Of a stretch of DNA of 64,000 nucleotides, positions 1 through 35,822 are shown one piece after another (positions within the stretch are counted from its first letter, which is position 1; every line of letters starts with the position of its first letter). A model generated the notes under the pieces. The model searched no databases. It saw only the letters and a list, made by a program, of their open reading frames with translations, and was not told where the DNA came from. The DNA is from Brevibacillus sp. DP1.3A (GTDB lineage: Bacteria; Bacillota; Bacilli; Brevibacillales; Brevibacillaceae), in contig NZ_CP085876.1 of the NCBI RefSeq assembly GCF_013284245.2, positions 3,455,001 through 3,519,000 on the forward strand, given 5' to 3'. A program made the translations under genes and the position numbers.

Positions 1-690
1 TCTCCCAGTTTATCGAGTGAAGGCTGATGTGGCGGCATCAACACCAGCTTCGCTCCGTTTAACAACGCACCCCAAATTTCAAAGGTAGCAGCATCAAACG
101 ATACGGTGGAGGCTTGCAAGAATACGTCCTCTTCCGAAATGGTCACGTAATTCGTGTTTTTGATCAGGCGAATAATCCCGCGATGGACGACCAGCACTCC
201 TTTTGGTGTACCTGTTGACCCCGATGTGTAAATGACGTAGGCGAGGCTGTCGGCGGTCATTTCTACTTGAGGAGCAAGTGTACTTTCTTCTGCCCATTTC
301 TCCCAAGCATGGTCGAGATTGAGAATGCTAAGCTCTTGTTCTTGCCACTTGTCAGACAAATGCTTCTGTGTCAATAAAATGGAAATCTGGGCATCTGCCA
401 GCATGAAAGCCAGACGTTCTTCTGGATACGCAGGGTCAAGTGGCACATACGCTCCACCTGCTTTGAGAATCCCGAGCATACCAACGAACATATCTAACGA
501 GCGATCTACGCAAAGCCCGACAAAAGTACCCGTTTCTACTCCTTTCTTTTGCAAGTAGTTGGCAAGCTGATTGGCTTTTGCTTCCAGCTCGGCGTAGGTC
601 AACTGTTCTTCCCCCGCAACGATGGCGATACGATCTGGGTATTGGGCCGCTGTTTCGGCAAACAGTTGTGGAACAGTTTGATCCCGAGGG
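1..690 (-). repeat. Repeated valine adenylation segment in lgrC, copy 2 (cut by window edge)
   Basis: Partner of 3,190-3,880. The identity suggests that the second module of lgrC also loads valine, although its decisive pocket residues after position 239 lie outside the window. Confidence 0.8.
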
Positions 691-3600: not shown

Positions 3601-5252
3601 AGACGTTGTTGGGGATACGCAGGGTCGAGTGGCACATACGCTCCACCTGCTTTGAGAATCCCGAGCATACCAACGAGCATATCTAACGAGCGTTCTACGC
3701 AAAGTCCGACAAAAGTACCTGTTGCTACTCCTTGCTTTTGCAAGTAGTTGGCAAGCTGGTTGGCTTTTGCCTCCAGCTCGGCGTAGGTCAACTGTTTTTC
3801 CCCTGCAACGATGGCGATACGATCTGGGTATTGGGCCGCTGTTTCGGCAAACAGTTGTTGAACGGTTTTATCACCAGGGTAATCGCTCGTAGTATCGTTT
3901 AGCCCGACCAGGAGATGCTGTCTTTCTTCTTGACTGATAAAAGAGATAGAGGACAGGCGTTGTTTGGGATTCTCGACGATGGCCACTAGAATGGATGCCA
4001 TTTGGTCAAGTGTCCGTTCGATTGCCGCCTGCTCAAAGCGGTCTGTCCTGTATATCATTTTGATGCTAAACTGTTCGCCCGGAATCCCGACAATCGTGAG
4101 CGGATTATCTACTTCTTGGAAGTGCTGTACATTAGAGATGGAAAAACCGAATTCCTTCTCTTCCCCTTCTCCCAGCGGATAGTTCTCAAATACGAAAATA
4201 CTTTCAAATAGTGGTAGTCCACGCGGTACATCCGTCCAGCCCTGGATATCCACCAATGGAGAGTATTCATACTGTCGGACTCTCGATTGCTGATCCTGTA
4301 ACTCTTTGAACCACTGATCCAACGTTTGCTCAGGCTCGACTTTCGTTTTCATCGGCAACGTGTTGATAAACATTCCAACCATCTGCTCTACACCTGGCAG
4401 TTCGCTCGGGCGCCCGGAACCAGTTACGCCGTATACCACGCTTTCTTCTCCGCTCAAACGGCTGAGGAGAATGGCCCATGCCCCTTGCACGATAGTGTTG
4501 ATCGTAACCTTATACGTTCGAGCTAATTTTAAGAGAGCTTTCGAGACCTCATCAGTCAAGGTTCGAGTCGATTCATGAATCCCTTTTTCCTGCTCTGAAC
4601 CTCTCAAGGGATAAGATTCAAAGGGAAGAGGTGTGGGACTCTCGACGGACGTTAGGAACTCGCGCCAGAACTTTTCAGACTCCGTGTTGTCCTGACGGCG
4701 AAGCCAGGAGATATAATCTTTGAATGGCTTTGGCTGTGGAAGTCTCAAGTCCTTGCCTTGGCAGTACGCCTCATAGAAGTCGAGGACTTCCTGAAAAAGA
4801 ATAGGGCTGCTCCATCCATCCAACAGCAAATGGTGAAAGGTCCAGATGAACTGGTGCACATCGTTGGCCTTTTTGATGACCGTTACTTGCATGAGGGGGG
4901 CTTCGCTCAAATCGAAGCCCGCCTCTTTTTCTTTTTGCAAAAACGATGTCAGCATGGTTTCTTGCTCTTCATCGGTGTGATGTGACCAGTCATCCTGACG
5001 TATGGAAAAAGGAACACTTTCGAAGACCACCTGAAGCGGCTTCTCCACTTCTTCCCAAAGGAATCCAGTACGCAAAATGGAATGTCTTTGAACCACTTTG
5101 TTCCAGGCTTTTTCAAAGTTGACGATGTCAAGCTCGCCTGTAAGAATGGCAATGTTCTGCACCATATAGGCTGAACCCTCAGAGTACAGCGAATGGAACA
5201 ACATCCCTTCTTGCAGCGGGGATAAGGTGTATAGATCAGTAAAATCCCCCAT
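1..5252 (-). CDS. lgrC: Linear gramicidin synthetase subunit C, N-terminal part (NRPS; runs off the left edge)
   Basis: The reading frame is open from an ATG at 5252 to the window edge (about 1,750 residues) with no stop. Visible domains: condensation (about 1-440, of the type that accepts a D-residue donor, with an HHxxxDG motif near residue 138), adenylation (about 450-960), carrier protein (GGHS near 1000), a second condensation domain of L-L type (about 1040-1460) and the start of a second adenylation domain (from about 1470). The first module has no epimerase, so its residue stays L. Its pocket reads DAFWLGGTF, the classic valine code; the second A domain has the same FDAATFEIW core. Linear gramicidin positions 7 and 8 are Val and D-Val, the first two residues added by LgrC. 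The start lies 4 bp after the lgrB stop, and its AAGGGG ribosome site lies inside lgrB, so the two are probably translationally coupled. The rest, including any reductase subunit, is outside the window. Confidence 0.9.
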   Translation of the reverse strand, partial: MGDFTDLYTLSPLQEGMLFHSLYSEGSAYMVQNIAILTGELDIVNFEKAWNKVVQRHSILRTGFLWEEVEKPLQVVFESVPFSIRQDDWSHHTDEEQETMLTSFLQKEKEAGFDLSEAPLMQVTVIKKANDVHQFIWTFHHLLLDGWSSPILFQEVLDFYEAYCQGKDLRLPQPKPFKDYISWLRRQDNTESEKFWREFLTSVESPTPLPFESYPLRGSEQEKGIHESTRTLTDEVSKALLKLARTYKVTINTIVQGAWAILLSRLSGEESVVYGVTGSGRPSELPGVEQMVGMFINTLPMKTKVEPEQTLDQWFKELQDQQSRVRQYEYSPLVDIQGWTDVPRGLPLFESIFVFENYPLGEGEEKEFGFSISNVQHFQEVDNPLTIVGIPGEQFSIKMIYRTDRFEQAAIERTLDQMASILVAIVENPKQRLSSISFISQEERQHLLVGLNDTTSDYPGDKTVQQLFAETAAQYPDRIAIVAGEKQLTYAELEAKANQLANYLQKQGVATGTFVGLCVERSLDMLVGMLGILKAGGAYVPLDPAYPQQRLAFMLADAQISILLTQEHLSDKWQGQELTILNLDHAGEKWAEESTLAPQVDMTADSLAYVIYTSGSTGTPKGVLVVHRGIVRLIKNTNYVTITEEDVFLQASTVSFDAATFEIWGALLNGAKLVLMPPHQPSLDELGETIQNHKVTILWLTAGLFTVMVDHKVEYLRGVRQLLVGGDVVSASHVRKVLSLDGITVINGYGPTENTTFTCCNPVTELPEGVNSFPIGRPISNTTVYVLDKHQQPVPLGAAGELYIGGDGLALGYLNNPELTAERFVKNPFDPQGGSRLYRTGDLVRYLPDGTIEFIGRIDNQVKIRGFRIELGEVEAALSLHPSVNEVVVMVREITPGEKHLTAYLTVSGDITLETSDLRAWTKTKLPEFMRPSFYIFLDVMPLTVNGKIDRKKLPEPEWTNPASAKGYMEPRNQVEELIANIWSQVLGVEKVGIHDNFFELGGHSLLATRVISRLREAFGIEQTVRSIFEHPTIAAWSEQGAALHLGEKEAIGGSIQPVPRQSNLPLSFAQQRLWFFDQFMPESPMYNIPSALRLQGELDVVAWEKSLQAIILRHESLRTTFQEIDGQSIQVIHPHMDWKMDILDLRDRSAEKKEQKIEQLAEAETARAFALGQGPLIRATMIQTDDHAYVFLINMHHIISDGWSMGIFYRELLANYEAFSKKETPELADLPIQYADFATWQREWLDGEILEQQVTYWKEKLSGAEPLLTLPTDRSRPAVQSYQGAIYTETFSTDLLAKLKVLSQESSSTLFMTLLAAFQTLLYRYSGQEDIVVGSPVAGRNRQETENLIGFFVNTLALRTNVTGDVTFTELLARVRETALEAYAHQDLPFEKLVDELQLERSLSYSQLFQVMFVLQNFPLEEVVTSGIQLTPLDSERHLTTSKFDLTLTMREQADGLVASFEYSTDLFDRSTIERMTGHLQNLLEAIISQPEESIEKLDLLRESERNKQVVELNNTDSDYPRDQTVPQLFAETAAQYPDRIAIVAGEEQLTYAELEAKANQLANYLQKKGVETGTFVGLCVDRSLDMFVGMLGILKAGGAYVPLDPAYPEERLAFMLADAQISILLTQKHLSDKWQEQELSILNLDHAWEKWAEESTLAPQVEMTADSLAYVIYTSGSTGTPKGVLVVHRGIIRLIKNTNYVTISEEDVFLQASTVSFDAATFEIWGALLNGAKLVLMPPHQPSLDKLG
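2140..5252 (-). other. LgrC first module: C-A-T, valine
   Basis: The pocket reads DAFWLGGTF (valine). The condensation domain starts with LSPLQEGMLFHSL, the type that follows an epimerase, which fits D-Val delivered by LgrB. No epimerase is present, so L-Val is added (Val7 in the standard numbering, Val9 here). Confidence 0.8.
3190..3880 (-). repeat. Repeated valine adenylation segment in lgrC, copy 1
   Basis: Nearly identical to 1-690 at an offset of 3,189 bp (1,063 codons, one module). It encodes the N-terminal half of the adenylation domain including the TSGSTG loop. The match continues beyond the left edge for the other copy. Confidence 0.85.
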
Positions 5253-5256
5253 TGGA

Positions 5257-8200
5257 TTAATTCCCCTTTCTTTTCTTCAGCTTGGAGAGAACCTTGTTTA
5301 ACTCCGTCTGACTCAAGTCTGCATCCTCGAAGTCTTCGACTCTATAGCTTTGTTTCTCCGCTTGTATCAGTGAACGCAGGATTTCCGTGAACTGATGGGC
5401 GAAAGTCTCGACGCTCGCTTCACTATGCAATGTCTCGCTGTATAGGAAGCTTAGGTTCAGCTTGCCTCCTGTGACTGCCCCTACCACATCAATCAGATGA
5501 GCCCTTCTGTTGTCCGGACTGATGTTGGAGCCTCTTTCTCCTGTCGCAAATCCAAACAGGGAATCTCCTTCTCCCGCCTGATTGAATTGTCCCAGATAGT
5601 TGAAGCTAATCGGTGGTTGCGGAATAGCCGCTAGCTTTTCGGACACCTCGTTATCTTTCGTCAGGTAGCGCAGGATGCCGTATCCAAGGCCTTTGTTCGG
5701 AATTTGTTGAAGCTTCTCTTTGACTATTACCAGCGCATTTTCCTGAGTCATGTTCTGATCCAGTCGAATCAGGAGTGGATACATGGACGTAAACCAGCCG
5801 ACCGTGCGGGAGAGATCGACCTCCGAGAACAATTCTTCTCGACCGTGACCTTCTAGGTTGACTAGTAGGGACTGTTCTCCCGTCCACTTAGCGTGTGCCA
5901 ATGCTAACGCGGTCAATAGAACATCATTGATTTGCGCGCGATAACGGGACGGTACTTTCTGTAACAGGGTTTCCGTCTCTTCTTCTTCCAGTGAAATCGT
6001 AATCGTCCGGCAGTTCCCTTCTGTGTTCAACTCACCGTCATGGATTGGCGGTGTAAAGGAGACCATCTCGTCTGCTGCAGTTATCCAGTACTCCTTTTCA
6101 GCGACAATACGTTCAGAAGATGCGTACTCATTCATTTTTACTGCCCATGCCTTGTAGGAGGTTGTCTTTGCTCGCAATTGAATCTCTGTTCCTTCAGCAG
6201 CTTGCCTATATGCCGTTTGCAAGTCTTCGATCAGAACTCGCCACGATACGCCGTCTACCGCCAAATGGTGGATGACAATCAGCAAGCGACCCGGTCGATC
6301 ATATCCGAGATCGAAGTACACGATCTTCATGAGCGGTCCGTTTTCTAAATCTAGGCTCGCTTGTGCTTGGTGTGAAAGTTTTTCGATTCTTCTCATGTGC
6401 TGAGCTGGCGAGACCATGCTAAGATCCTCCAGCATGAGCAAACCTTCCGATTCGACTTCTGCGTGTGTCTGCTTCCACTGTCCATCTGTGTAGGTATAAC
6501 GCAGGCGTAGCGCGTCGTGGTGAGTGAGCAGTTGGGTAATGGCTCGCTCCAGATGCTCTTCGTCCAATTGCTCATTTACTTGCAGGAGCATCGATTGGTT
6601 CCAGTGATGTGGTGTTGGTTGCTCTTGCTCGAAGAACCATTTTTGGATCGGCAATAGTGGAGCTTCACCTGTTACCATTCCTTGCTCTGCTTCCATTTTC
6701 GTGCTATGGCCTGCAACCTTTGCCAACTCTGCAATCGTTTGATGGTCAAAAAGATTTTTCGGAGTTAGATGGATGCCAGCTGTGTTTGCACGCGCGACGA
6801 TTTGAATGCTGAGAATGGAGTCGCCCCCAAGCTCAAAAAAGTTATCGTGAATGCCGATGCGATCCATTCGGAGAACAGCGCACCAGATTTCCGTCAGTCT
6901 TTGTTCGATTAGGCTCGTAGCCTGTGCAAACGAATGAACATCTTGGCTGCGATCATAGACAGGGACTGGAAGTGCTTTTCTGTCTACTTTTCCGTTTGGC
7001 GTAAGCGGCAATTCATCCAGCATGACGAAAGCGGTCGGCACCATATAATCCGGAACATGTGCTTTGAAGTGTTGGCGCAGTTCGACTGTATCCATTTCTT
7101 GCTCCGCTTCTTTGACCGCATAAGCTACGAGCTGTTTCTTTCCTGGTTCATCTTCACGGACAATGACTACGGATGCGGCAAGTGAAGGGTGTTTGGCTAA
7201 AACTGCCTCTACTTCACTTAGCTCGATACGGAATCCGCGGATTTTTACCTGATTATCGATTCGGCCGATGAATTCGATGAGGCCATCTGGCAGGTAACGA
7301 ACCAAGTCACCAGTCCGATAGAGTCGTGCCTGCGGATCGGTTGAGAACGGGTTGGGTACAAAGCGTTCTTCCGTCAAATCAGGACGATTCAAATATCCTG
7401 TAGCCAGACCATCTCCACCGATGTACAGCTCACCTGTTACACCAATTGGGACGGGGTGCATTTTGCCATCAAGAACGTACACAGTCGTATTCTTGATGGG
7501 ACGGCCAATCGGGAAAGAACTAATCGTCTCTGGCAACTCCGTGACCGGATAGCAGCAGGTGAATGTCGTGTTTTCCGTTGGACCGTACCCGTTGATAATC
7601 GTGATCCCTTCGATTTCCAACGCTTTTCTTACGTGAGGAACCGAGACGACATCTCCACCCACGAGCAGTTGCCGAACCCCCGTCAGGTATTCTTTGTAAT
7701 GATCGACCATCAGTGTGAACAGTCCCGCCGTCAGCCAAAACGTCGTAACCTTATGCGTCTGAATGGCTTGTCCCAACTCTTCCAAGGAAGGCAGATCAGG
7801 TGGCATCAGCACTAGCTTTGCCCCATTCAGCAAGCTGCCCCAAATCTCAAAGGTCGCCGCATCGAACGATACCGTGGACGCTTGCAGGAAAACGTCCTGC
7901 TCTGTGATCGTCACGTAGTCTGTTTCTTTGACGAGACGGGCAATGCCTCGATGGATGACAAGCGTTCCTTTTGGCAACCCGGTAGAACCAGAGGTGTAGA
8001 TCACGTAAGCGAGACTTTCCGCTGTGGTGTCAATGTCAGGTGCCAGTTCACTTTCTTCGTCCATCATCACCCAGTCGCGATCCAGACAAATGACTGTATG
8101 CTCTCCAGGTGGGAGTGATGGTAGAAGCTGCTCCTGTGTGAGCAAAACAGTAACGTGAGCATCGTCCATCATGTATGCCAGACGTTCTTTTGGATAGTCC

Positions 8201-9840
8201 GAATCGAGCGGTACATAAGCCCCACCAGCTTTGAGAATCCCGAGCACCCCGATCAGCATTTCGAGAGAACGCTTCACGCAGATACCGACGAGTGAACCTG
8301 GGCGAACGCCTTGCTTTTGCAGGTAGTTAGCCACTTGGTTGGCTCGTGTCTCTAACTGGGAGTAAGTGAGACTCTGGTCACCCGCTACCACTGCTATGCG
8401 ATTCGGGTAAAGCATCGCGGTCTGTTGGAACAATTGATCCACGCGTTGATCCCGTGGGTAAGCCGTCGTGGTGTCGTTCCATTCCACAAGCAGTTGCTCC
8501 TGTTCTGCCTGAGGCAAAAACGGCAATTGAGTAATGGTTAGTTCCGGCATCTGAACGATGGCTTCAAGTAAGTGATGGAAGTGCTGTGACATTCGCACAA
8601 TCGTCGTTTCATCAAACAACGCTGTATTGTACTCAAACGTTGCGATCAGTTCATCTTGTTTTTCTGCCATGGTCAACGTCAGGTCGAACTTGGCGGTGAC
8701 GAGGTGTTTGTCCATATCGAATTCCGATACGCGAATGCCAGCCTTTTCGTCTAAATCTAGCTGGAAGTTTTGGAGGACAAACATCACTTGGAACAGCGGC
8801 GAGTAACTGAGACTACGCTCTAGCGCCAGTTCATCGACCAATTTTTCAAACGGAAGATCCTGATAGGCATAGGCTTCTAGCGCCGTCTCCTTCACTCTTG
8901 CCAGTAAGTCACGGAATGTCGGTTCCCCTGACATGTTCGTACGGAGCACCAATGTATTAATGAAGAATCCAATCAATTGTTCCGTCTCTTGTCTATTGCG
9001 TCCTGCGACAGGGCTTCCGACGAGGATGTCTTCCTGTCCACTGTAGCGGTAGAGAAGAGTTTGGAAGGCAGCCAGCAAGGTCATGAACAGCGTCGATTCT
9101 TCTTTACGGCTAAGTGTTTGTAATTTGTCGAGAAGTTCACCTGCGAGCGTCGTTGAGTAAATCGCTCCCTCGTACGTTTGTACAGCAGGACGTGAACGGT
9201 CTGTCGGCAAGGTGAGAAGCGGTTCAGCACCACCTAATTTTCCACTCCAGTAAGAAAGTTGTTCGTCTAATACCGAACCTTGGAGCCACTCGCGTTGCCA
9301 AGCCGCGTAGTCAGCATACTGCACAGGTAAATCAGCCAATGCTGGTATATCGTTTTGGCTAATCGCTTCGTAGGAGGTGAACCATTCGCGAATGAATACT
9401 CCCATCGACCAACCGTCAGAGATGATGTGATGCATGTTCAAAAGGAAGACTGTTTCTTGCTCGCTTATGCGAATCAAGGTGGTACGGAACAACGGACCTT
9501 CGCTCAGGTTGAATGGCGTAGCTGCCTCTATTCCTGCCAGACGCTGTGTTTCTGCTTCGCACTCGTCCGTTGGTAGCTCCCGCAAGTCGATTACACGTAA
9601 CGACTGTTCTTGGTAAGCGTGAATCATTTGTACGGCTTGCCCATCTACGTGGTCAAAGGTTGTCCGCAAGCTTTCATGGCGCTGGATCAGTACCTGCAAG
9701 CTCTTGTTCCAAGCCTCCAGTTTCAGGTCTCCGTGCAATCGCATCGCGGACGGGATGTTGTACAAGGCACTGTCTGGCATCAGACGATCCAGGAACCACA
9801 GACGTTGTTGCGCAAAGGACAATGGCAGATGACCTTCCCG
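5257..9840 (-). other. LgrB module 8: C-A-T-E, D-valine (second copy)
   Basis: Same valine pocket as module 6 (DAFWLGGTF). The epimerase (HHLAVDG) is more diverged from module 6 than the adenylation domain is. The protein ends in a lysine-rich tail (LSKLKKRKGN) that probably forms the docking end towards LgrC. Confidence 0.78.
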
Positions 9841-12800
9841 TGAAACAGGTACGATCGAAGCTCCGGTTGTTTCTTGCAAAAAGCTTCCGAGTGCTTCGGA
9901 CAGTTCTGCAACGGTTGGGTTTTCGAAAAGCGTACGGATAGGTACTTCTCCTGCAAACATGTCACGAAGACGGGAAATGACCCGTGTCGCTAAGAGAGAA
10001 TGCCCACCCAACTCGAAGAAGTTGTCATGAATCCCGACTTTTTCGATACCGAGCACATGCGACCAGATTGTGGTGACCAGCTCCTCCGTTTGGGTGCGTG
10101 GCGCTACATACTCTTGAGTAGAAGCCATCTGCCCCCACTCCGGCTCTGGCAGTTGCTTCCGGTCGATCTTGCCGTTCGGTGTGAGCGGCATAGCGTCCAG
10201 CCAGACAAAGACTGATGGAACCATAAACTCTGGCAATTTTGCTTTTGCCCAGACCGCTAAGTCAGTGGCCTCTTCGCTACTTTCGTCTTTTGTCGTCACA
10301 TACGCCGCCAGACGTTTGTCACCCAGCTTGTCTTCTCTTGCCATCACCACGGCTTCCTTGACAGCCGGATGGGTGCGAAGGACAGCCTCCAACTCTCCCA
10401 ACTCGATCCGATAGCCGCGAATCTTCACCTGGTGGTCAATTCGTCCCAAATACTCGATTTGACCATCTGGGAGATACCTGACCAAGTCACCGGTGCCGTA
10501 CATCCGTGCATGCGGGTCAGCGTGGAATGGATTGGACAAGAATTGTTCTGCTGTCAGCTCGGGGCGATTCAGGTACCCGCGAGCCAATCCGTCACCGCCA
10601 AGATACAGTTCCCCAGGTAAGCCCAATGGTACAGGTTGTAGGTTGGTATCAAGAATATACGCTTGTGTGTTGGACAAAGGACGGCCAATCGTCGGTTCTG
10701 ACGTGGCGCCTTTGGTGACCTGTACATACGTGGAGTAGGTCGTATCTTCAGACGGACCATAAAGATTAAAGACTTTTTCGACATGCTCCAGTGCATATAG
10801 GCTTTGCACCAATGTGTTTGGCAGTGGCTCTCCAGCTAGGTTGACCACTCGTACCGTCGACGGGATCGCGTTCATCCGCACCAGTTCTTTCGCCGCAGAT
10901 GGAACGGTATTGATTAAGGTCACTTCGTTGACTGCTGGCAGGCTCGGTACATGCAAGGCGTTGTCAGCCAAGATGACTTTCCCGCCGTAGCTTAAGGTCA
11001 CGAATATTTCATAGACAGACAGATCGAAGCAGATGGAAGTGGAAGCGAGCACGCCACTCATTTCTTCAGCCGAAAAGATAGTTTTCGCCCAAGCGATGAA
11101 GGCAATGACACTACTGTGCTGAATCGCTACCCCTTTAGGCAGACCTGTCGACCCCGAGGTGTAAATGACATACGAAAGGTTCGTTGGCTCTACCAGATTG
11201 AGCAAGTTCTCTTCGCTTTTCTCTGCAATAAGCTCCCAGTCACGATCCAGGCAGATCACTTGTGCTGGATGTTCAGGCAGCATGGATAGCAGGCTTTCTT
11301 GGGTCAACAGGATCGCCGCTTGCGAATCCTCCAAGGTATAGCCGATTCTCTCTTGTGGATACGCGGGATCAATCGGTACATACGCCCCACCAGCTTTGAG
11401 AATCCCCATCATCGCTACGATCATCTCAGTCGTGCGTTCCATGAGAACAGCGACCAAGACCTCTGGACCGATCCCTTGCGCACGCAGATAGTGAGCCAAC
11501 TGGTTTGCTCGTCGGTTCAGCTCCGCGTACGTCAGTCTTTCTTCTCCGACGATTAAAGCCTCGGCATCCGGTGTAGCGACTACTTGTGCTTCAAACAGCT
11601 GGTGCATCACTGCATCACGAGCATATTCCGTTTCCGTTGCGTTCCATTCCACTACCAGCTTGTGGCGTTCCTCATCCGTAATAAATGAAAGTGTAGTCAG
11701 CGGCTGTTCCGCTTGTGCAGTTAGGGCATGTAAAACCTGCGACATCTGTTCTAATACTTTAACAATCACTTCCGTATCAAAACGCCCTTGCTCATAGATC
11801 AATTTGAGAGCAAGTTCATCGCCAGGAGCCGCCACCAATGTCAGTGGGTAATTGGTTTGCTCCACTGCTTGGACTTCACTCAGCGACACCCCAGAATCTG
11901 AATCCTCACTCGTGCTGTTCAAGTAGTTCTCAAAAACGAGAATACTGTCAAACAACGATTGTCCATGTGGAACCTCACTCCAGCCTTGGACGTCTACAAG
12001 TGGTGTGTATTCATACTGGCGGATGTCTAATTGTGTCTTTTGCAAGTGTTGTAACCATTCCTGTATCGTTTGGCTTGGATCAAACATGACGCGGACAGGT
12101 AACGTATTAATAAAGAGTCCTACCATGTTTTCCACTCCTGGCAGCTCTGCTGGACGACCAGAAACTGTCGTTCCAAAGACAACATCGTCTGATCCGCTGT
12201 AACCGCTCAGGATGAGTGCCCATGCCCCTTGTACTAACGTATTTAGCGTCAACTGCTGCTTGCGGGCAAAAGCTTGCAGGTGGGCCGTTACTTCCTTGGA
12301 TAAGTAAACGGTTCGATCTCTGTAGGTTTTAGGCTGTATGGCATGACTGCCTGCTTTTCCTATAGCAAGTGGTGTTGACTCGTAGAAACCTTTTAACTGC
12401 TCACGCCAATAGCGCTCTGCAACTTGCTTATCTTGCTTATTGATCCATGCGATATAGCGACTGAATGGTTGGACTGCTTCTAATTTTTCTTCTTCGCCTC
12501 TATAGATCGCTTGGTAACTTGCCTGCCAATCTTGCAAGATAAGTGGCATACTCCAGCCATCTAGCAAGATATGATGGAAGCTCCATAAGAAGCGATACGT
12601 ATTATCGTTTGTGGAAAACAATGTCCAACGCATTAATGGCGCCTGATTAAACTGGAAGTTTCGCACGCGGTCTTTTTCCATGTACGCTTGGATTTCAGCT
12701 TCCTGTTTAGCGACATCCACATGGCGTAGGTCGATTTTATCTATGCTTACTTTTACTTGTTTTCGGACAATTTGATGCGGTTGTTCCAAACCTTCCCATA

Positions 12801-15800
12801 TAAAGGAGGTACGAAGAATCGAATGACGGTCGACTATTTTCTGCCATGCCTGCTCGAATGCTTCCAAGCTAATATCTCGCATTGTCATGAGGAACTGTAC
12901 AACATAATCGCCACCCTCTTGTTCATACAGAGAGTGGAACAGCATCCCCTCTTGCAGTGGAGTCAGCGAGTATACACTTTCGATCTGACGATCCGAAGCG
13001 ATGTATTTGTCGATAGACTGCTGATTTAGATTAGCCAGTGGGAAGTCTGACGGTGTGTAGCCGATTTCTTCTGCCGATTGAGTGTAAGACATAATCTCTC
13101 GCAGTGCTTCCATGTAATCATCAGCAACCGCCGCAATCGTCTGTTCGTCATGGATGTTTTCGTTGTACAACCAGGTGACGTGTAGCTGATCTCCTGTAAC
13201 CGCACTAATGATATCTAGCAAGTTCTCTCGAATCGAATCAGGGGCAAGATTGGCTCCACTGCATTCAGACGCTATGCCAAAAGTAGAGGAAACCGCCACC
13301 GTCTGATCAAATTGCCCAAGATAGTTGAAGCTGATTTGCGGTTTCGGTTGGGCGTTCAGGTGGTGGTGTAGTTCAAGATCATCACTTAGATAGCGCAAAA
13401 TCCCATAGCCAACACCCTTATTTGGAATCTGGCGGAGCTGTTCCTTGACTGTCTTCAGCGTATGTCCCCAAGTTTTTTCTTGCTCGATAGAGATCTGTAA
13501 CGGGTACATACTTGTGAACCAGCCAACCGTATGGGATAAATCTGCCCCTTCGATAATCTCCTCGCGTCCATGCCCTTCCAGAAGTACGACCATCGTCTCT
13601 TTTCTTGTCCATCGAGTCAGTGCTTTTGCTAAGGAAGCAAGCAATACGTCATTGATTTGCAGCCGGTAGGAAGGGAGCGTTTCGTGAAGCAAGTTGCGCG
13701 TCTCTTCGGCGGTCAGCGTAAGTGTAATCTGTTTCGTGGATGCCTCGGTGTTTTGGGCTGACTCATACGTACGGTCTACAGGAAGTGGCTCCACTTCATA
13801 TGCTTGATTTGTCCAAAAGTTTTTTTCCATTTCGAGCGCATCAGAGTTGGCATAAGCGTGTAACTGTTCAGCCCATGCCTTAAACGAGGTCGTTTTTGAC
13901 GGCAATTGCACCGCCTGACCATTTACAGCTTGCTCATAAGCCGCCTGCAAGTCTTCCAGCAAAATGCGCCAGGATACCCCGTCGACTACCAAGTGATGAA
14001 TAGCGAGCAGGAGTCGTCCCGCGCGTTCTTTTCCAAGGTGGAAGTACACTGCTCGGAACATCGGGCCTTCTGTGATGTTCAGACTCGCCTGCTTCTCGCC
14101 TGCAATTTCTTCCAATCGCGCGAATTGTTCCTCTGGTGAGATGTCAGTCAAATCAACCAAATCGAAAGGTGCAGGTTCGCCCAAGCCCTCGATGTGTTGT
14201 GACCATAAACCGTCGTTGTTGGTATAACGCATGCGTAAAGCATCGTGGTGTGCAAGCAACTCGGTAATGGCACGCTCCAATGCGTCCGTATCCACCGGTT
14301 CCTCGACTGTCAACAAGAAGGATTGATTCCAGTGATGGATAGACGGTTGATTTGCGGCAAAGAACCACTTCTGGATTGGTGTAAGCAACACATTTCCGGT
14401 CACAATGCCTTGCTCCGCCAGTTGAATAGCGTTTTCCCCGTTTCCAGTGGTTGAAACGAGAGCTGCCAGTTCAGCGATTGTTTGGTTTTCAAAGATCTGT
14501 TTAGGTGTAAGACGAATCCCTGCTTGGTTAGCCCGAGAGACGATTTGGATACTCAGGATCGAGTCTCCTCCGAGTTCGAAGAAGTTGGAGTTGATACTGA
14601 TTTCTTCGATTCTGAGAACGTCTTGCCAAATCTCAGACAGTTTGCGCTCGATATTGGTATGTGGTGCAACGTAGTGCTCATCACTTGTGTTCGCATAGTC
14701 AGGTTTTGGCAGGGCCCTACGGTCTACTTTCCCGTTTGGCGTAAGCGGCAATTCATCCAGCATGACGAAAGCAGATGGCACCATATAATCCGGAACATGT
14801 GCTTTGAAGTGCTTGCGCAGTTCGGCTGTATCCATTTCTTGCTCCGCTTCTTTGACCGCATAAGCTACGAGCTGTTTCTTGCCCGGTTCATCTTCTCGAA
14901 CAATGACAACGGATGCGACAAGATCTGGGTGTTTGGCTAAAACTGCCTCTACTTCACTCAGCTCGATACGGAATCCGCGGATTTTCACCTGATTATCGAT
15001 TCGGCCGATGAATTCGATAAGACCATCGGGCAGATAACGAACCAAGTCACCCGTTCGATAGAGTCGTGCCTGCGGATCGGTTGAGAACGGGTTGGGTACA
15101 AAACGTTCTTCCGTCAAATCAGGACGATTCAAATATCCTGTAGCCAGACCATCTCCACCGATGTACAGCTCACCTGTTACGCCAATCGGGACGGGCTGTA
15201 TTTTGCCATCAAGAACGTACACAGTCGTATTCTTGATGGGACGGCCAATCGGGAAAGAACTATTCGTCTCTGGCAACTCCGTGACCGGATAGCAGCAGGT
15301 GAATGTCGTGTTTTCCGTTGGACCGTACCCGTTGATAATCGTTAGTCCTTCGATTTCCAACGCTTTTCTTACGTGAGGAACCGAGACGACATCTCCACCC
15401 ACGAGCAGTTGCCGAACCCCCGTCAGGTATTCTTTGTGATGATCCACCATCAGTGTGAACAGTCCCGCTGTCAGCCAAAGCGTTGTAACCTTATGCTTCT
15501 GAATGGCCTGTCCCAACTCTTCCAAGGAAGGTAGATCAGGTGGCATCAGCACTAGCTTTGCCCCATTCAGCAAGCTGCCCCAAATCTCAAAGGTCGCCGC
15601 ATCGAATGATACCGTCGATGCTTGCAGGAAAACATCCTGTTCTGTGATCGTCACGTAATCAGTTTCTTTGACGAGACGGACAATGCCTCGATGGATGACA
15701 AGCGTTCCTTTTGGCAACCCGGTAGAACCAGAGGTGTAGATCACGTAAGCGAGACTTTCCGCTGTGGTGTCAATGTCAGGTGCACGTTCACTTTCTTCGG

Positions 15801-18800
15801 CAATCATCGCCCAGTCGCGATCCAGACAAATCACGGTATGCTCTCCAGATGGAAGTGACGATAGAAGCTGCTCCTGCGTGAGCAAAACAGTGACTTGCGC
15901 GTCGTCCATCATGTAGGCCAAACGTTCTTTTGGATAATCCGAATCGAGCGGTACATAAGCCCCACCAGCTTTGAGAATCCCGAGCACCCCGATCAGCATT
16001 TCGAGAGAACGCTTCACGCAGATACCGACGAGTGAACCTGAGCGAACGCCTTGTTTTTGCAGGTAGTTCGCTACTTGGTTGGCTCGTGTCTCTAACTGGG
16101 AGTATGTGAGGCTCTGGTCTCCCGCTACCAATGCTATGCGATTCGGGTAAAGCATCGCGGTCTGCTGGAACAATTGATCCACACGTTGATCCCGTGGGTA
16201 AGCCGTCGTGCTGTCGTTCCATTCCACAAGCAATTGCTCCCGTTCTGCCTGAGGCAAAAACGGCAATTGAGTAATGGTCTGCTCCGGCATCTGAACGATG
16301 GCTTCGAGTAAGTGATGGAAGTGCTGTGACATTCGCACAATCGTCGTTTCATCAAACAGCGCTGTATTGTACTCAAACGTTGCGATCAATCCGTTTTGTC
16401 TTTCTGTCATCGTCAACGTCAGGTCGAACTTGGCGGTGACGAGGTGTTTGTCCATATCGAATTCCGATACGCGAATGCCAGCCTTTTCGTCTAAATCTAG
16501 CTGGAAGTTTTGGAGGACAAACATCACTTGGAACAGCGGCGAGTAGCTGAGACTACGCTCTAGCGCTAGTTCATCGACCAATTTTTCAAACGGAAGATCC
16601 TGATGAGCATAAGCTTCGAGCGCCGTCTCTTTCACTCTCGCCAGCAAATCACGGAATGTCGGTTCTCCTGACAGATCCGTACGTAGCACCAATGTATTAA
16701 TGAAAAAACCGATGAGCGACTCGGTCTCCTCCCGATTTCGTCCTGCAACCGGGCTTCCGACGAGGATGTCTTCCTGTCCACTGTAGCGGTAGAGCAAAGT
16801 TTGGAAGGCAGTCAGCAGTGTCATGAACAGCGTCGATCCTTCTTCACGGCTGAGCAAATTCAACTTTGCTAACAGTTCAGCTGAAAGTGTAATGGTATGC
16901 ATCGCGCCAACGTGGCCTTGAACGGCTGGACGCGGACGATCTGTCGGCAAAGCTAATAGTGGTTCGGCATCGACTAGCTTTTCTTTCCAGTACGCTAGCT
17001 GTTGCGTAAGCACATCTTCTTCCATCCACTTCCGTTGCCATACAGCGTAATCGGCGTACTGCAATGTCAGATCAGCTAATGCAGGTTCTTTGCCGTGAAC
17101 AAATGCCTCGTACAGTGCTCGCATTTCTTTGATGAAAATACCGATAGACCAGCCATCGAAAATAATATGGTGCATGTTAAATAAGAAGACGGCCTCTTGC
17201 TCGCTTATGCGAATCAAGGTGGTACGGAACAACGGACCTTCGCTCAGGTTGAATGGCGTAGCTGCCTCTATTCCTGCCAGACGCTGTGTTTCTGCTTCAC
17301 ACTCGTCCGTTGGTAGCTCGCTCAAGTCGATTACACGTAGCGACTGCTCTTGGTAAGGGTGAATGATTTGAACGGCTTGCCCATTGACGTGGTCAAAGGT
17401 TGTCCGCAAGCTTTCGTGGCGCTGGATCAGTACCTGCAAGCTCTTGTTCCAAGCCTCCAGTTTCAGATCCCCGTGCAATCGCATCGCGGACGGGATGTTG
17501 TACAAGGCGCTGTTTGGCATCAGACGATCCAGGAACCACAGACGTTGTTGCGCAAAGGACAATGGCAGTTGACCTTCCCGTGAAACAGGTACGATCGAAG
17601 CTCCGGTTGTTTCTTGCAAAAAGCTTCCGAGTGCTTCGGACAGTTCTGCAACGGTTGGGTTTTCGAAAAGTGTACGGATAGGTACTTCCCCTGCAAACAT
17701 GTCACGAAGACGGGAAATGACCCGTGTCGCTAAGAGAGAATGTCCGCCCAACTCGAAGAAGTTGTCATGAATCCCAACTTTTTCGATCCCGAGTACGTGC
17801 GACCAGCTCGTGGCTATCAGCTCCTCCGTTTGGGTGCGTGGCGCTACATACTCTTGTGTAGAAGCCATCTGCCCCCACTCCGGCTCTGGCAGTTGCTTCC
17901 GGTCGATCTTGCCGTTCGGTGTGAGTGGCATAGCGTCCAGCCAGACAAAGACTGATGGAACCATAAACTCCGGTAATTTTGCTTTTGCCCATGCCGCAAA
18001 GTCAGTGCCGTCTTCCCTACTTTCCTCTTCTGTCGTCACATACGCTGCCAGACGTTTGTCACCCAGCTTGTCTTCTCTTGCCATCACCACGGCTTCCTTG
18101 ACAGCTGGATGGGTTCGAAGGACAGCCTCCAACTCTCCCAACTCGATCCGATAGCCGCGAATCTTTACCTGATGGTCAATTCGCCCCAAATACTCGATTT
18201 CTCCATCTGGGAGATAACGGACCAAGTCGCCAGTGCTGTACATCCGTGCATGCGGGTCAGCGTGGAATGGATTGGACAAGAAACGTTCTGCCGTCAGCTC
18301 TGGGCGATTCAGGTACCCGCGAGCCAATCCTTCCCCGCCAAGATACAGTTCCCCCGGTAAGCCCAATGGTACAGGTTGTAGGTTGGTATCAAGAATATAC
18401 GCTTGTGTGTTGGACAAAGGACGGCCAATCGTCGGTTCTGACGTGGCGCCTTTGGTGACCTGTACATACGTGGAGTAGGTCGTATCTTCAGACGGACCAT
18501 AAAGATTAAAGACTTTTTCGACATGCTCCAGTGCATATAGGCTTTGCACCAATGTGTTTGGCAGTGGCTCTCCAGCTAGGTTGACCACTCGTACCGTCGA
18601 CGGGATCGCGTTCATCCGCACCAGTTCTTTCGCCGCAGATGGAACGGTATTGATTAAGGTCACTTCGTTGACTGCTGGCAGGCTCGGTACATGCAAGGCG
18701 TTGTCAGCCAAGATGACTTTCCCGCCGTAGCTTAAGGTCACGAATATTTCATAAACAGACAAATCGAAGCAGATGGAAGTGGAGGCGAGCACCCCACTCA

Positions 18801-21800
18801 TTTCTTCAGCCGAAAAGACGGTTTTCGCCCAGGCGATAAAGGCAAGGACACTGCTGTGCTGAATCGCTACCCCTTTGGGCAGACCTGTCGAGCCCGAGGT
18901 GTAAATGACATAGGAAAGGCTCGTTGGTAACGCCAAATTTGGCAGGTTCTCTTCGCTTTGCTCCGCGATGAGCTCCCAGTCACGATCCAGGCAGATCACT
19001 TGTGCTGGATGTTCAGGCAGCATCGACAGCAAGCTTTCTTGGGTCAACAGGATCGCCGCTTGCGAATCCTCCAACGTATAGCCGATTCTCTCCTGTGGAT
19101 ACGCGGGATCAATCGGTACATACGCGCCGCCAGCTTTGAGAATACCCATCATCGCTACGATCATCTCAGTCGTACGTTCCATAAGAACAGCGACCAAGAC
19201 CTCTGGGCCGATGCCTTGCGCACGCAGATAGTGAGCCAACTGGTTTGCTCGTCGGTTCAGCTCCGCGTACGTCAGTCTTTCTTCTCCGACGATTAAAGCC
19301 TCGGCATCCGGTGTTGCGACTACTTGTGCTTCAAATAGTTGGTGCATCACTGCGTCACGAGCATATTCCGTTTCCGTTGCGTTCCATTCCACTACCAGCT
19401 TGTGGCGTTCCTCGTCTGTGATGAATGAAATGGTAGAGAGATGTTCCGTAGGCTGAGCCATCATTGACTCTAATACTTTGATCAATTGAGCCAATACCTT
19501 ATCCATGGTGAACTGCTCGAATCGATTGGTTTCATAAATCAGCTTGAGCATTAGCTCTTCGCCAGGCGCTGCCACCAATGTCAATGGATAGTTCGTCTGC
19601 TCAACTGCTTTGATTGCGTTTAGCGACATGTCTGTATTGGCATTTGTTTTTGCACCAGACAAGTAGTTCTCGAAAACGAGTATGCTGTCAAACAACGCCT
19701 GTCCAAGTGGCACTTCGCTCCAGCTTTGAATGTCAACGAGCGGCGTGAACTCGTACTGACGTATCTCACTCTGTTCCTGTTGGATGTTCTGCAGCCAGTC
19801 GATCACCGTCATTTGTTCCGAGAAAAGTACGCGAACAGGCAGAGTATTGATAAACAGACCCACCATGGAGTCCACTCCACGCAAATCTGTAGGACGTCCC
19901 AGGTTGGTTGTCCCAAATACCACTTCCGACTCACCTGCGTAACGACTTAAAATCAAGGCCCACGCACCTTGGACCAGCGTATTCATCGTCAGTTGATGCC
20001 TACGGGCAAAAGTTTGCAGACTCGCAGTTGTTTCCTTCGATAAAAGAGTCATATGATCTGCGTATTCTTTTTGTTGCACAGCCCTTCCACCCGGGTTCCC
20101 CATGCTAAGGGGAGTTGGTATTCGGAAGCCCCGCAGATGATTTCGCCAATACTGCTCTGATACCTCAAGACTCTGCTGCTTTAACCAGGCAATATAAGAG
20201 GAAAACGGAGGAGCGACAGACAGTTTTGCTTCGGTACCATCAACAGATGCCTGATAATAGGCCAACCAATCGTTAAGGACGATCGGTGTACTCCAACCAT
20301 CCAACAACATATGGTGAAAGCTCCAAACGAGTTGACTGGTTTTCGAATCTAGACGAATCAACGACCACCGCATCAATGGCGGGTGAGCGAGATCAAAGCC
20401 TAGCTTGCGATCTTGTTCGAGATAGGTTTGCAAGTTCGCTTCTTGCTTTTCTTTCGTTAAGTGACTCCAGTCCAGTTGTTCGACATGTGCTTTTACTTTT
20501 GTATGAACAACCTGATGTGGTTTTTCTAATCCGCTCCATAAGAAGGAGGTTCGGAGGATGGCATGACGCTCAACAACTTTTTGCCATGCTTCTGAAAACA
20601 TCGCCACATTCAAGTGATCCAAATTCACGACCAGTTGAACGACGTAGTCCCCGCCTTCTTGCTCATAAAGTGAGTGGAACAGCATCCCCTCTTGTAACGG
20701 GGTGAGCGTGTAAATGTTCTCGATCAGACGATTGTTTCCGATGAACTTGTCGAGGCTTTTTTGATCCAACTCTGCCAATGCGAAATCGGATGGTGTATAG
20801 CCACCTGCCTCTTCAGAGCGACAATGGGCAATGATCGCTTGCAATGATTGCACATAGTCACGAGCAAGCTCTTCAATCGTTTGTTGTTCGTACATATCGC
20901 CGCTGTACGTCCAGGTCATTTCTAACTGATCTCCCGCCACCATGCTCTGGAAATCAAGTTTATGGAGTCGGGCTTCATCCTTGCTCAGATTTGATGCTGA
21001 CCAGTTCGGAATGATCTGGAACAAGGAAGAATCAGCCGTTTGATCCTGATCAAATTGTCCTAAATAATTGAAGCTAATCTCAGGTTGCGGATAAGCTTGC
21101 AGGGTATTTAACGTTTGTTCATCTTTGCTTACATAACGATGAATGCCGTAGCCAATCCCTTTGTCAGGAATCGTGCGCAATTGTTCTTTGACTGATTTTA
21201 TCAGGGAACCCCAAGGCGTCTTTGGCTCCATTTCCAGCAAGACCGGGTACATGATTGTGAACCAGCCTACTGTACGAGAAATGTCCACGCCATCGATGAT
21301 CTCTTCACGCCCGTGTCCCTCCACTGAAACATAGAGTGTCTCTTGCCCCGTCCAGTTGTTATAGGCTCGGATCAAAGCACTGAGTAACACGTCGTTAATC
21401 TGAGTACGGTAAGCGGCTGGTACCTCCTGCAATAAGGCACGAGTCTCGTCCACATCCAGTTTTATCTTTACTTGAACGGCCAGACTTTCTGTGTTCTTTC
21501 CATTTGGATGGTCAACAGGCAGGTTGAGTACATGACTTGTATCCAGATTCGCCCAGTATTCGTCGACTACGCTTTGCTCTGCGTACTGTGTCAACTGTTC
21601 CGACCATTGCTTGAAAGAAGTCGTTTTCTGAGGCAAATTCAGCTGTTGCAACCCTGTCAATTGTTGATAGGCCATTTGCAAGTCTTCCAGAATAATTCTC
21701 CAAGAAACACCATCGACAGCGAGATGATGAATCGCAATGAACAGACGCTGTTTGGCCCCGCATTGGAAGTATGCAGCACGAAGCAATGGTCCTTTTTCGA

Positions 21801-24800
21801 TATCCAGACTTTCTTGTAGCTGGTCTGCAATGGCTTGCATTTGTTCCTCTATGTCCGTTTCAAGTACAGCTGTCAAATCTACTACCTGAAACACGTCCTC
21901 ATCCGAAACGACATCATGATATTGCTCCCATTTTCCGTTGACGTTCCGAAAACGCAGGCGCAAGGCATCATGGTGAGCAAGAATCGTCGCAAAAGCTTTT
22001 GCCAATAAACTTGCATCCATCTCTTCACGCACAGCAAGCATGACAGATTGATTCCAGTGGTTTACATGGCAAATTTCCTGCTCAAAGAACCACGTCTGAA
22101 TGGGTGTCAGAGGCAATTCGCCTGTAACAACACCCTGCTCCATTTGCACTTGTGGTGCATCCTCAAGAACAACGACACTTGCAGCCAATTCTGCCAATGT
22201 TTGAGAGTCAAACAAGTGCTTTGGTGTAAATCTGATACCCGCCTGATTGGCACGCGACACAATTTGAATAGTCAGAATCGAATCGCCGCCCAGTTCAAAA
22301 AAGTTATCGTGAATCCCGATTGACTCTACACCTAGAACTCCTTGCCAGATTTCGGCCAGCTTGTGTTCTATTTCTGTTTGTGGGGCAACAAAGCAATCTT
22401 CCCATTGAGCTCGCAAGGCATCGGGTACCGGCAAAGCACGGCGATCAACTTTTCCGTTTGGAGTGAGAGGCAGGGCATCCATCAGTATGATGACAGATGG
22501 CACCATGTAGTCTGGAAGTCTATCTTTCAAAGACTGACGCAATTCATTCGTCTGTACCTCTTCTCCCTCATGAAGCACGGCATAAGCCACCAGTCGTTTC
22601 ACTCCAGGCGTCAAGTCTTCCCTGACGATCACCACTGCTTCCGAAACAGCTGAATGTGCATACAAGGCCGACTCTATTTCCCCCAGCTCAACCCTGAATC
22701 CCCGAATGCTTACTTGATCATCGGCGCGTCCAATAAACTCCAAATTGCCATCTACCAAATAGCGAACCAAGTCGCCAGTGCGATACATCCGTGCCCCTTC
22801 ATCTGTAGAGAACGGATTGGGTACAAAGCTGGCTTCCGTCAGATCAGGACGGTTCAGATAGCCGCGTGCTAAGCTTTTCCCCGCGATGTAAAGTTCCCCG
22901 ACAACTCCTACAGGCACAGGCTTTCTGCTTGCGTCGAGTACATAGACAGATACGTTGTCAATGGGACGTCCAATGGAAGGAGCCGCTTCTCGTTCTCCCT
23001 GCACGGGCACGATGCCAGCAGTAGCAACGACAGTATTTTCTGTTGGTCCGTATTGGTTTACCAACGTAAACGGTACATTCGCAGACGGGTAATGGTGCAA
23101 GGTATCACCACCCGTCAACATGTAGCGCAATGCTGAGTCGGCTGGCCAATTCAAGGTAAGCAGGCTCTCTGCCAAAGGCGTTGGTAAAAAGCTTATTGTG
23201 ATGCCTGATTCGACTAACCAAGTACGCAGTTTTTCCGGTACGAGACGAATCTCTTCCTGTGGCAGGCAAATCGTAGCACCTGCCGTCAAATACGGCCAAA
23301 TCTCCCACACCGAAGCATCAAAAGCTGTACCTGCTATTTGCGATGCACGGTTCGCAGCGATTACGTTGTACGCTCGCTGATGCCAATTGACTAGATTCAA
23401 GAGTGATCCGTGCTCGATCTCCACTCCCTTTGGTGTTCCTGTAGAACCTGACGTATAGATGACATAGGCGAGTTGTTCTGCTTTGGCCGTAACCGCTGGC
23501 GCAACCGAACTCATCTCAGCAATGACATGCCAATCTCGATCCAAGCAAAGGAACGTTGCAGCGTCTTTTGGTAATGCACCTACCAACCGCTCTTGGGTTA
23601 AGACCAATGACATCTGTGAGTTCCTGATCATAAAAGCGAGTCGTTCTTGGGGGTATGCAGGGTCCATCGGCACATAAGCGGCACCTGCTTTGAGAATCGC
23701 GAGTTGACCGATCACCATCTCGATGGAACGCTCCACGCAGATTCCTACCAAGTCTTCCGAGCCAACCCCTTGTTTTAGCAAGAGATGAGCGAGCTGATTG
23801 GCCTTCGCATCCAGGTCTGCATAGGTGATTGCACCTTGCTCACCCGAAACGGCAATCTGATCAGGCAACGTTTGTGCCAGTTGGGCAACACGTTCGTGCA
23901 CGCAAAGATCGCGGGAATAATCAACCTCAGTATCATTCCAACCGACGAGTAGCTGATCTCGTTCTACATCGCCTAACAGTTCCACTTCCGTTATTTTCTG
24001 TGCTGGGTTGGTCGCAATAGCTTGCAAAAGATTGCGGAAATGCTCAGCCATGCGCTCAATCGTCGTACGATCAAATAGATCTGTGCTGTATTCAAACACA
24101 CCCTTGAATCCGTAATCCTCGTCTTCAATCATAGTGAGAGTCAAATCAAATTTGGTCGTCTTGTTGAGATTGACTTCATTAGGTGTAATGGATATCGTCT
24201 CGCCTTTCCGTACACCCGTTGACATTCCCTGTACGGAGAAAAGTACCTGGAATAGCGGCGAATAGCTAAGACTGCGCTCAATTTGTAATTCATCGACCAA
24301 TCTTTCAAAAGGAATATCCTGATTGGCAAAAGCATCAAATGCCGTCTCACGAACACGTCGTAACAGCTCAACGAATGTAGGCTCGTTAGACAGGTCAGTA
24401 CGAAGAACCAGCATGTTGACAAAGAACCCGATTAGGTTTTCTATTTCCTGACGATTACGTCCCGCAACAGGTGTGCCTATCAGAATATCTGTGGTATGTG
24501 TATAGCGGTACACGAAGTGCTTGAATGCCGCTAAGAGCGTCATGAACAGTGTCGCGCCTTCTTGTCGCCCAAGCTCGCGTAGCTTTTGCCCCACTTCACC
24601 TGGCACGAAGAAAGAATAATTGTCACCGCGATAGCTTTGCACGACTGTCCGTGGGCGATCCGTCGGAAGTGGCAAAAGTGGTTCACTCTGGCCCAGTTTC
24701 TTTTTCCAATAGCTGAGCTGCTGCTCCCATACATTGTCTTGCCAGTTCTCTCGTTGCCAGATTGCGTAATCGCGATATTGAATGGGTAAATCGGCAAGCG

Positions 24801-28492: not shown

Positions 28493-35822
<7,330 letters not shown>

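Follow-up and report, generated by a model that had tools for sequence, protein, structure and literature searches.

The britacidin (C17-gramicidin) synthetase locus of Brevibacillus sp. DP1.3A and the apparently old, mosaic nature of its extra LgrB bimodule

Linear gramicidin is assembled by the nonribosomal peptide synthetase (NRPS) LgrA-D, whose classic form (16 modules, 15 residues; B. brevis ATCC 8185 in the papers, B. parabrevis in our comparison) starts with a formyltransferase (F) domain and ends with a reductase. The britacidins were named in 2020, when britacidin A from B. brevis Ag35 was solved (exact mass 2042.1757). Its residues 1 and 11 are Ile and Tyr, positions 7-8 hold Ala and Val, and two extra adenylation (A) domains in briB, the second gene of briA-D, were assigned to Ala and Val (PMC7448283). 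For Brevibacillus sp. DP1.3A, an 18-module cluster with 2-6-6-4 modules has been described and a heptadecapeptide with Ala and D-Val at positions 7 and 8 proposed (PMC9867215), its extra modules being presented as a partial duplication (PMC9867215/PMC10753013). C17-gramicidin (~2043) was reported by mass spectrometry, with a parent ion of 2043.1 for strain HB2.2 and 'the same result' for DP1.3A (PMC10753013). The present analysis concerns the same locus in a stretch of 64,000 nucleotides (C1:3455001-3519000, hereafter the window) of the DP1.3A genome, which comprises 6,663,250 bases in four contigs, C1 accounting for 6,601,295 of them.

We put a probability of about 0.9 on the reading that this locus is the britacidin (C17-gramicidin) synthetase of DP1.3A and works as proposed below. 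The cluster and its 17-residue product are already known, and the headline is hence not new; the new gramicidin type that an earlier note on this stretch had proposed was already in print, both as the britacidins (PMC7448283) and as C17-gramicidin of DP1.3A itself (PMC10753013). The apparent novelty lies in the extra part of LgrB being an old mosaic and not a fresh duplication.

As the earlier note had claimed, lgrB is a single open frame (7735 amino acids) with six A domains. According to genome-wide matches to the Condensation/epimerisation profile, together with motif and alignment work, LgrA, LgrB, LgrC and LgrD hold 2, 6, 6 and 4 modules, the last followed by a reductase domain, which makes a line of 18 modules in place of the classic 16-module/15-residue form. 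Otherwise the organisation is of the gramicidin type: four colinear genes A-D, an F domain on the first module (Formyl_trans_N in LgrA, 1.3e-19), a terminal reductase (NAD_binding_4, 3.4e-75) and epimerisation (E) domains in every second module, so that the L/D alternation is kept as predicted. The genes lgrC and lgrD, read mostly left of the window as the earlier note had suggested, are standard, and no loss of two modules there offsets the gain in LgrB. With thiolation (T) and condensation (C) as the remaining domain types, the synthetase genes are:

28493..35407, minus strand: lgrA (briA), F-A-T-C-A-T-E, modules 1-2; Pfam Formyl_trans_N, two AMP-binding, two PP-binding and two Condensation stretches; pocket codes DGLFLGLIV and DIANLCIIY
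5257..28464, minus strand: lgrB (briB), six modules, 3-8 of the line; open frame, C/E matches, pocket codes, and T, C and E motifs
3..5252, minus strand: start of lgrC (briC); remainder left of the window, stop-to-stop frame C1:3437039-3460276
C1:3421710-3437057: lgrD with the terminal reductase, after lgrC; profile matches and pocket codes

The TycA encoded in this genome (DAWTIAAIC) served to calibrate the pocket codes. After the two LgrA codes listed above, the line continues with DVANMAIIY, DAWFLGQVV, DLYNNALTY, DAFWLGGTF, DLYNNALTY and DAFWLGGTF in LgrB, with DAFWLGGTF, DAFWLGGTF, DVAMVGCVC, DAWFLGQVV, DVSTIGCVT and DAWFLGQVV in LgrC, and with DVSSIGCVC, DAWFLGQVV, DVSSEGCVG and DLYNNCLVY in LgrD. 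B. parabrevis shares the F-domain start, gene order, LgrB tail and reductase end and has identical codes in modules 2 and 4-6, the two Val modules of LgrC, the D-Leu modules and LgrD, including the last-module code DLYNNCLVY, which has been assigned to Gly (or Ala by antiSMASH; PMC9867215). Its LgrB has four modules, however, and its codes differ at residue 1 (DGLYIGGIM), at residue 3 (DVANFAIIY) and in the first and second aromatic modules of LgrC (DVSSIGCVC and DVSAIGCVT there, DVAMVGCVC and DVSTIGCVT here), the first of these being the altered pocket for residue 11.

Codes and module count bear out the predicted 17 residues with Val/Ile first and an extra Ala-D-Val at positions 7-8. The pair is nevertheless internal, within the formyl-terminal half, and the channel is not lengthened at its formyl end as had been supposed. 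The expected shift of about 170 Da is likewise not simply so: gramicidin A plus Ala and Val computes to 2051.176, but the residue-11 pocket differs and Ile1 and Tyr11 are published, and a 17-mer carrying both computes to 2042.1757, which equals the published value for britacidin A (PMC7448283; main product 2042.18). The BriA-D line of Ag35 thus resembles the one described here in the two extra A domains (Ala, Val) of its second gene, Ile in first place, the different residue-11 pocket (Tyr) and the predicted peptide and mass; Ag35 is another strain, our code DVAMVGCVC having been compared with B. parabrevis and the Tyr assignment taken from that paper (PMC7448283).

In the proposed mechanism, LgrA would formylate and start the chain, LgrB, with six modules rather than four, would add residues 3-8, and LgrC and LgrD would complete it. 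Release as the ethanolamide would be effected by the LgrD reductase, probably together with an aldo/keto reductase. The predicted product is formyl-Ile-Gly-Ala-D-Leu-Ala-D-Val-Ala-D-Val-Val-D-Val-Tyr-D-Leu-(Trp-D-Leu)2-Trp-ethanolamide. Gene anatomy and codes are direct observations and the product mass and sequence rest on published work, while the D-positions are predicted from the E domains and the putative release enzymes from domain content and general gramicidin biochemistry.

Module skipping happens in some NRPS, and one could imagine that the extra modules are present but passed over, the line making 15-mers. For the main product this is contradicted, and very unlikely, since C17-gramicidin is reported for DP1.3A and HB2.2 (PMC10753013) and britacidin A has Ala-Val at 7-8 (PMC7448283); 15-mers may still arise as minor products. 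In addition, the C, T and E motifs are intact across all 18 modules, two extra hits to the motifs being chance matches, and the mean ratio of nonsynonymous to synonymous substitution rates over six genome pairs points to purifying selection on the extra parts (T6-E6 0.20, C7 0.14, a patch within C8 0.15), with 0.16 for C5 and 0.18 for T8-E8. Motif integrity, selection, the LgrB tail and the published product together settle how the line works. Chance does not account for the six modules. An assembly artefact or expanded repeat would be conceivable in principle, as such repeats do break assemblies, lgrB being cut by contig ends in B. fortis and B. formosus. Its probability is practically negligible, however, as the two copies differ at ~5% of sites, the stretch joining them recurs in six of 39 genomes, and six-module lgrB is intact in four of the seven genomes with complete lgrB. 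Moreover, DP1.3A, with a chromosome and three plasmids, was sequenced with nanopore reads (PMC9867215) and the 17-mer was reported for this very strain (PMC10753013).

The earlier note had explained the extra modules by an in-frame duplication of modules 5-6 with a constant period of 7,740 bp. The spacing is real and the codes of modules 5-8 are as given there, but near-identity along this period is limited to A5-T5-C6-A6 versus A7-T7-C8-A8 (nucleotide identity 0.915-0.968 over three stretches within each of four genomes) and is interrupted inside C6/C8 by a low patch of ~110-120 residues at 0.64-0.67. C5/C7 are 0.61-0.63 and the T-E parts 0.56-0.58 identical along the same period. At the upstream edge, identity rises from ~0.6 to ~0.95 at the C-A linker (residue ~3018 of the LgrB stop-to-stop frame, window position 19431; copy 2 at 11691); at the downstream edge it drops just after NGKVDR in the A-T linker (residue ~4592, window position 14709; copy 2 at 6969). 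LgrB can accordingly be divided into the following parts:

19432..20724, minus strand: C5, orthologue of the C5 of four-module LgrB; 74% amino acid identity to B. parabrevis/gelatini C5 versus 59% to its own C7
14710..19431, minus strand: A5-T5-C6-A6, repeat copy 1, with approximate edges set by the two identity steps
11692..14709, minus strand: T6-E6-C7, joining the repeat copies (approximate edges); distinguished by trees and by its lack of a counterpart in four-module LgrB
6970..11691, minus strand: A7-T7-C8-A8, repeat copy 2 (approximate edges); identity to copy 1 as above outside the C8 patch, copies pairing by genome in 4/4
9082..9423, minus strand: diverged C8 patch, beginning about the HHxxxDG active-site motif; 83/360 sites fixed between copies in four genomes (counted over copy-1 residues 3770-3890), patch tree and topology tests
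5257..6969, minus strand: T8-E8 with the C-terminal tail, orthologous to the T-E that ends four-module LgrB; T 83-85% and E 72-74% amino acid identity to B. parabrevis/gelatini

Comparison with B. parabrevis confirmed four modules there and two more here, but not a doubled unit: C5 (74%) and T8-E8 (72-85%) are orthologous to the corresponding parts in B. parabrevis and B. gelatini, whose LgrB has four modules, whereas T6-E6-C7 and the C8 patch have no counterpart in that protein. Outside its six carriers, T6-E6-C7 matches best, at 63%, the LgrC T-E-C of B. gelatini. On sequence grounds, the extra bimodule is therefore not a simple bimodule copy, since T6-E6-C7 was not copied from modules 5-6, nor was part of C8. 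The period, the identical pocket codes and the near-identical A-T-C-A would all suit a simple, recent tandem duplication, which we nevertheless regard as improbable. C7 is not a copy of C5, nor T6-E6 of T8-E8, nor the C8 patch of C6, and a recent local origin is rejected by the approximately unbiased (AU) test (p-AU 6e-35 for T6-E6-C7 with brevis LgrB E4-C5, 6e-5 for C7 alone with brevis C5 only). The fixed differences common to four genomes contradict it as well, and its rescue needs three separate stretches replaced in one ancestor.

How, then, did A-T-C-A come to look so fresh? The comparison of the four six-module genomes suggests that its copies are kept alike by repeated gene conversion with modules 5-6. 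In A-T, the two copies within a genome are 0.952-0.968 identical, versus 0.910-0.938 for the same copy between genomes; for C6C-A the ranges are 0.930-0.953 versus 0.912-0.929. None of 1860 A-T sites is fixed between copies, while 101 are equal within genomes and vary among them; the corresponding counts are 11/1998 and 66 for C6C-A, and 1/375 and 11 for the short N part of C6/C8. The remaining parts present the reverse picture, with 329/1281 (C5/C7) and 447/1629 (T-E) fixed sites and no or one conversion-type site, respectively, and none in the C8 patch. In the tree of either tract, the copies group by genome in 4/4 genomes (bootstrap 97-100). Over the whole of A-T-C-A with its patch, the copies of one genome show a synonymous divergence of 0.19-0.24, so that repeated conversion is a better description than one very recent event.

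The joining stretch seems to be older than this conversion. In a tree of 45 T-E-C stretches, T6-E6-C7 of the six genomes sits beside a pair of LgrC branches that each contain the brevis group, B. parabrevis and B. gelatini (98-99 in the Shimodaira-Hasegawa-like approximate likelihood ratio test, SH-aLRT), and a 27-row tree agrees. B. dissolubilis is the first to branch in the LgrB E4-C5 and LgrD groups of these trees (SH-aLRT 99-100). Besides the tests cited above, the AU test rejected T6-E6-C7 with brevis-group LgrC E2-C3 (p-AU 5e-48) or LgrC E4-C5 (4e-8) and C7 alone with brevis LgrC C5 (1e-6); when the LgrC E4-C5 of parabrevis and gelatini were included along with those of brevis, p-AU for T6-E6-C7 was 0.009. 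Because of these trees and the rejection of brevis-only groupings, T6-E6-C7 probably predates the split of the brevis group from parabrevis/gelatini, and the C8 patch agrees, weakly. The A-T-C-A of an old extra bimodule would thus have been overwritten again and again by conversion, whereas T6-E6-C7 and the C8 patch would have retained the old sequence.

If so, the 17-residue line may be ancestral in the B. brevis/parabrevis group and 15-residue gramicidin secondarily shortened, one L/D bimodule having been deleted by recombination between the homogenised repeats. Four-module LgrB corresponds to C5, a single A-T-C-A and T8-E8, which is what a six-module ancestor would yield on crossing over between its A-T-C-A copies; this is the scenario that we prefer, at about even odds. 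Several points weigh against this history. B. dissolubilis, the outgroup in the lgr trees, has four modules, so that an ancestral six-module line requires gain and then loss, and full-length T6-E6-C7 was not found in B. parabrevis or B. gelatini at a strict cut-off, short relics not having been sought outside lgrB. T+E alone groups with LgrC while C7 alone groups with LgrB C5 around the dissolubilis split (SH-aLRT 96), and the stretch may therefore itself be composite. The C8 patch is short, and its grouping with brevis C6 only is weakly rejected (p-AU 0.033), that with all C6 not rejected (0.18). All T-E-C, part-by-part and patch trees are quick trees, and the AU groupings were picked after the first tree, though they express duplication hypotheses. 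As for conversion, a longest-run shuffle test was strong (<=9/2000) in four of eight tests, whereas two of the remaining four gave weak (46, 60) and two gave null (268, 313) results, and for the short N part of C6/C8 the identity range within genomes overlaps that between genomes. A tree of rpoB, finally, joins B. parabrevis with B. gelatini (91/99) and assigns the six T-E-C carriers to one group together with three genomes lacking lgrA, but does not fix the branching order of B. dissolubilis, parabrevis/gelatini, the brevis group and G020; four of its 19 rows (G004, G008, G009, G025) were disregarded for other lengths, a very long branch and probably a wrong frame.

The same pattern would be left if the B. 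brevis group's ancestor had acquired the extra bimodule from some gramicidin-like synthetase outside the sampled genomes, the A-T-C-A of the import then being overwritten by conversion from modules 5-6, and four-module LgrB were ancestral. Four modules in both dissolubilis and parabrevis/gelatini, the missing full-length T6-E6-C7 in the latter and the differing affinities of T-E and C7 favour such an import, which we take as a serious, if tentative, possibility. No donor was found, however: among 398 genomes of the class, outside the nine lgr-bearing ones, no match exceeded 49% at full length or 55% over 739 residues (E <= 1e-230, two candidates scored per genome), and in a search of plasmids the best match listed reached 46%, all 813 matching records lying below 60%. 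Seven genomes of the class with distant T-E-C matches yielded no LgrA F domain at E <= 1e-15 in a search without positive control. The branch lengths of T6-E6-C7, moreover, resemble those of LgrC paralogues evolving inside the cluster.

With respect to distribution, lgrB is complete in seven genomes, with six modules in four of the B. brevis group (G000, G005, G007, G023) and four in B. gelatini, B. parabrevis (G018) and B. dissolubilis (G027). The joining T-E-C stretch occurs at 93-100% identity in six of 39 family genomes (up to 21 candidates scored per genome), two brevis-group drafts, B. fortis and B. formosus, being the additional carriers; any T-E-C match at E <= 1e-250 was found in 9/39, as was the LgrA start domain at E <= 1e-80. 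In the two drafts, where contigs end inside lgrB, the T-E-C is left on separate small contigs (L046 = G013:C65, 7760 bases; L049, L050), and gramicidin clusters that look 'truncated' in draft genomes may owe this to assembly. The LgrA formyltransferase domain of B. formosus (G012:C56:132858-133447, L043) contains one internal TGA and is split over two matches, which may reflect a frame error or a broken start. The close relatives G001, G002, G006 and G019 (rpoB loci L065, L078, L072, L074), which stand on both sides of the tree, yielded no strong match to the LgrA start domain, and the whole cluster seems often lost or absent among relatives. Gramicidin genes without a detected product have also been described (PMC11705897).

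Within NRPS and polyketide synthase (PKS) clusters, concerted evolution is known to homogenise A and most C domains, as in those for daptomycin, A54145 and CDA (PMC4256081), and the behaviour of A-T-C-A is similar; the main text of that paper has no match to gramicidin. Natural exchange in NRPS takes place mostly inside the A core, the C-A linker and the A-sub/T interface being kept (PMC8097286). The junctions in lgrB, one in the C-A linker and the other directly behind the NGKVDR of the A-T linker, would be a further natural crossover example for NRPS engineering. Near-identity of A-T-C-A cannot date a module gain, because conversion resets it again and again whereas the adjoining T-E-C preserves its age; this matters for how NRPS repeats are read. 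The related lines making 15- and 17-residue channels further constitute a natural pair. We found no account of the lgrB mosaic or its gene conversion in the main texts, without supplements, of open-licence papers including PMC9867215, PMC4256081, PMC9205934, PMC8097286, PMC10753013 and PMC7448283, the last of which has no match to 'duplicat' in its main text.

Upstream of lgrA lie two further genes adjoining the cluster:

37609..39396, minus strand: aldo/keto reductase, candidate LgrE (Pfam Aldo_ket_red, 1.6e-28)
39150..39932, minus strand: thioesterase-like protein (Pfam Thioesterase, 4.4e-47)

The reductase would presumably carry out the second reduction to the ethanolamide, for which it is a candidate only. 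The two frames overlap on one strand, and the true start of the reductase may lie later than that of its listed open reading frame.

The genome G007 (6,296,436 bases), which we take to be that of B. brevis NBRC 100599, carries a prophage of ~39.7 kb (C1:3071710-3111389; L025, L026, L054) that interrupts lgrC after residue 6407; beyond it follow the remainder of lgrC and an open lgrD. A large serine integrase is encoded at its edge (3071726-3073099; phrog_95 9e-129, Pfam Resolvase and Recombinase), terminase, portal, tape measure and DnaB-like genes in its interior, and five of six proteins tested have a named phage function. The 13-module 'gramicidin' record BGC0000367 has been put down to a 3' deletion in lgrD (PMC9867215). 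Because 2+6+5 modules lie before the break, the prophage may be the explanation of that record instead.

Lastly, the B. dissolubilis locus (C12:67401-147400, L039-L042) encodes a four-gene, 16-module gramicidin-like line with a reductase end but different pockets, namely DVGLVGAIA for residue 11, two Val-type DAFWLGGTF in LgrD and DILQLGMIW in the last module, which suggests that it is another gramicidin variant.

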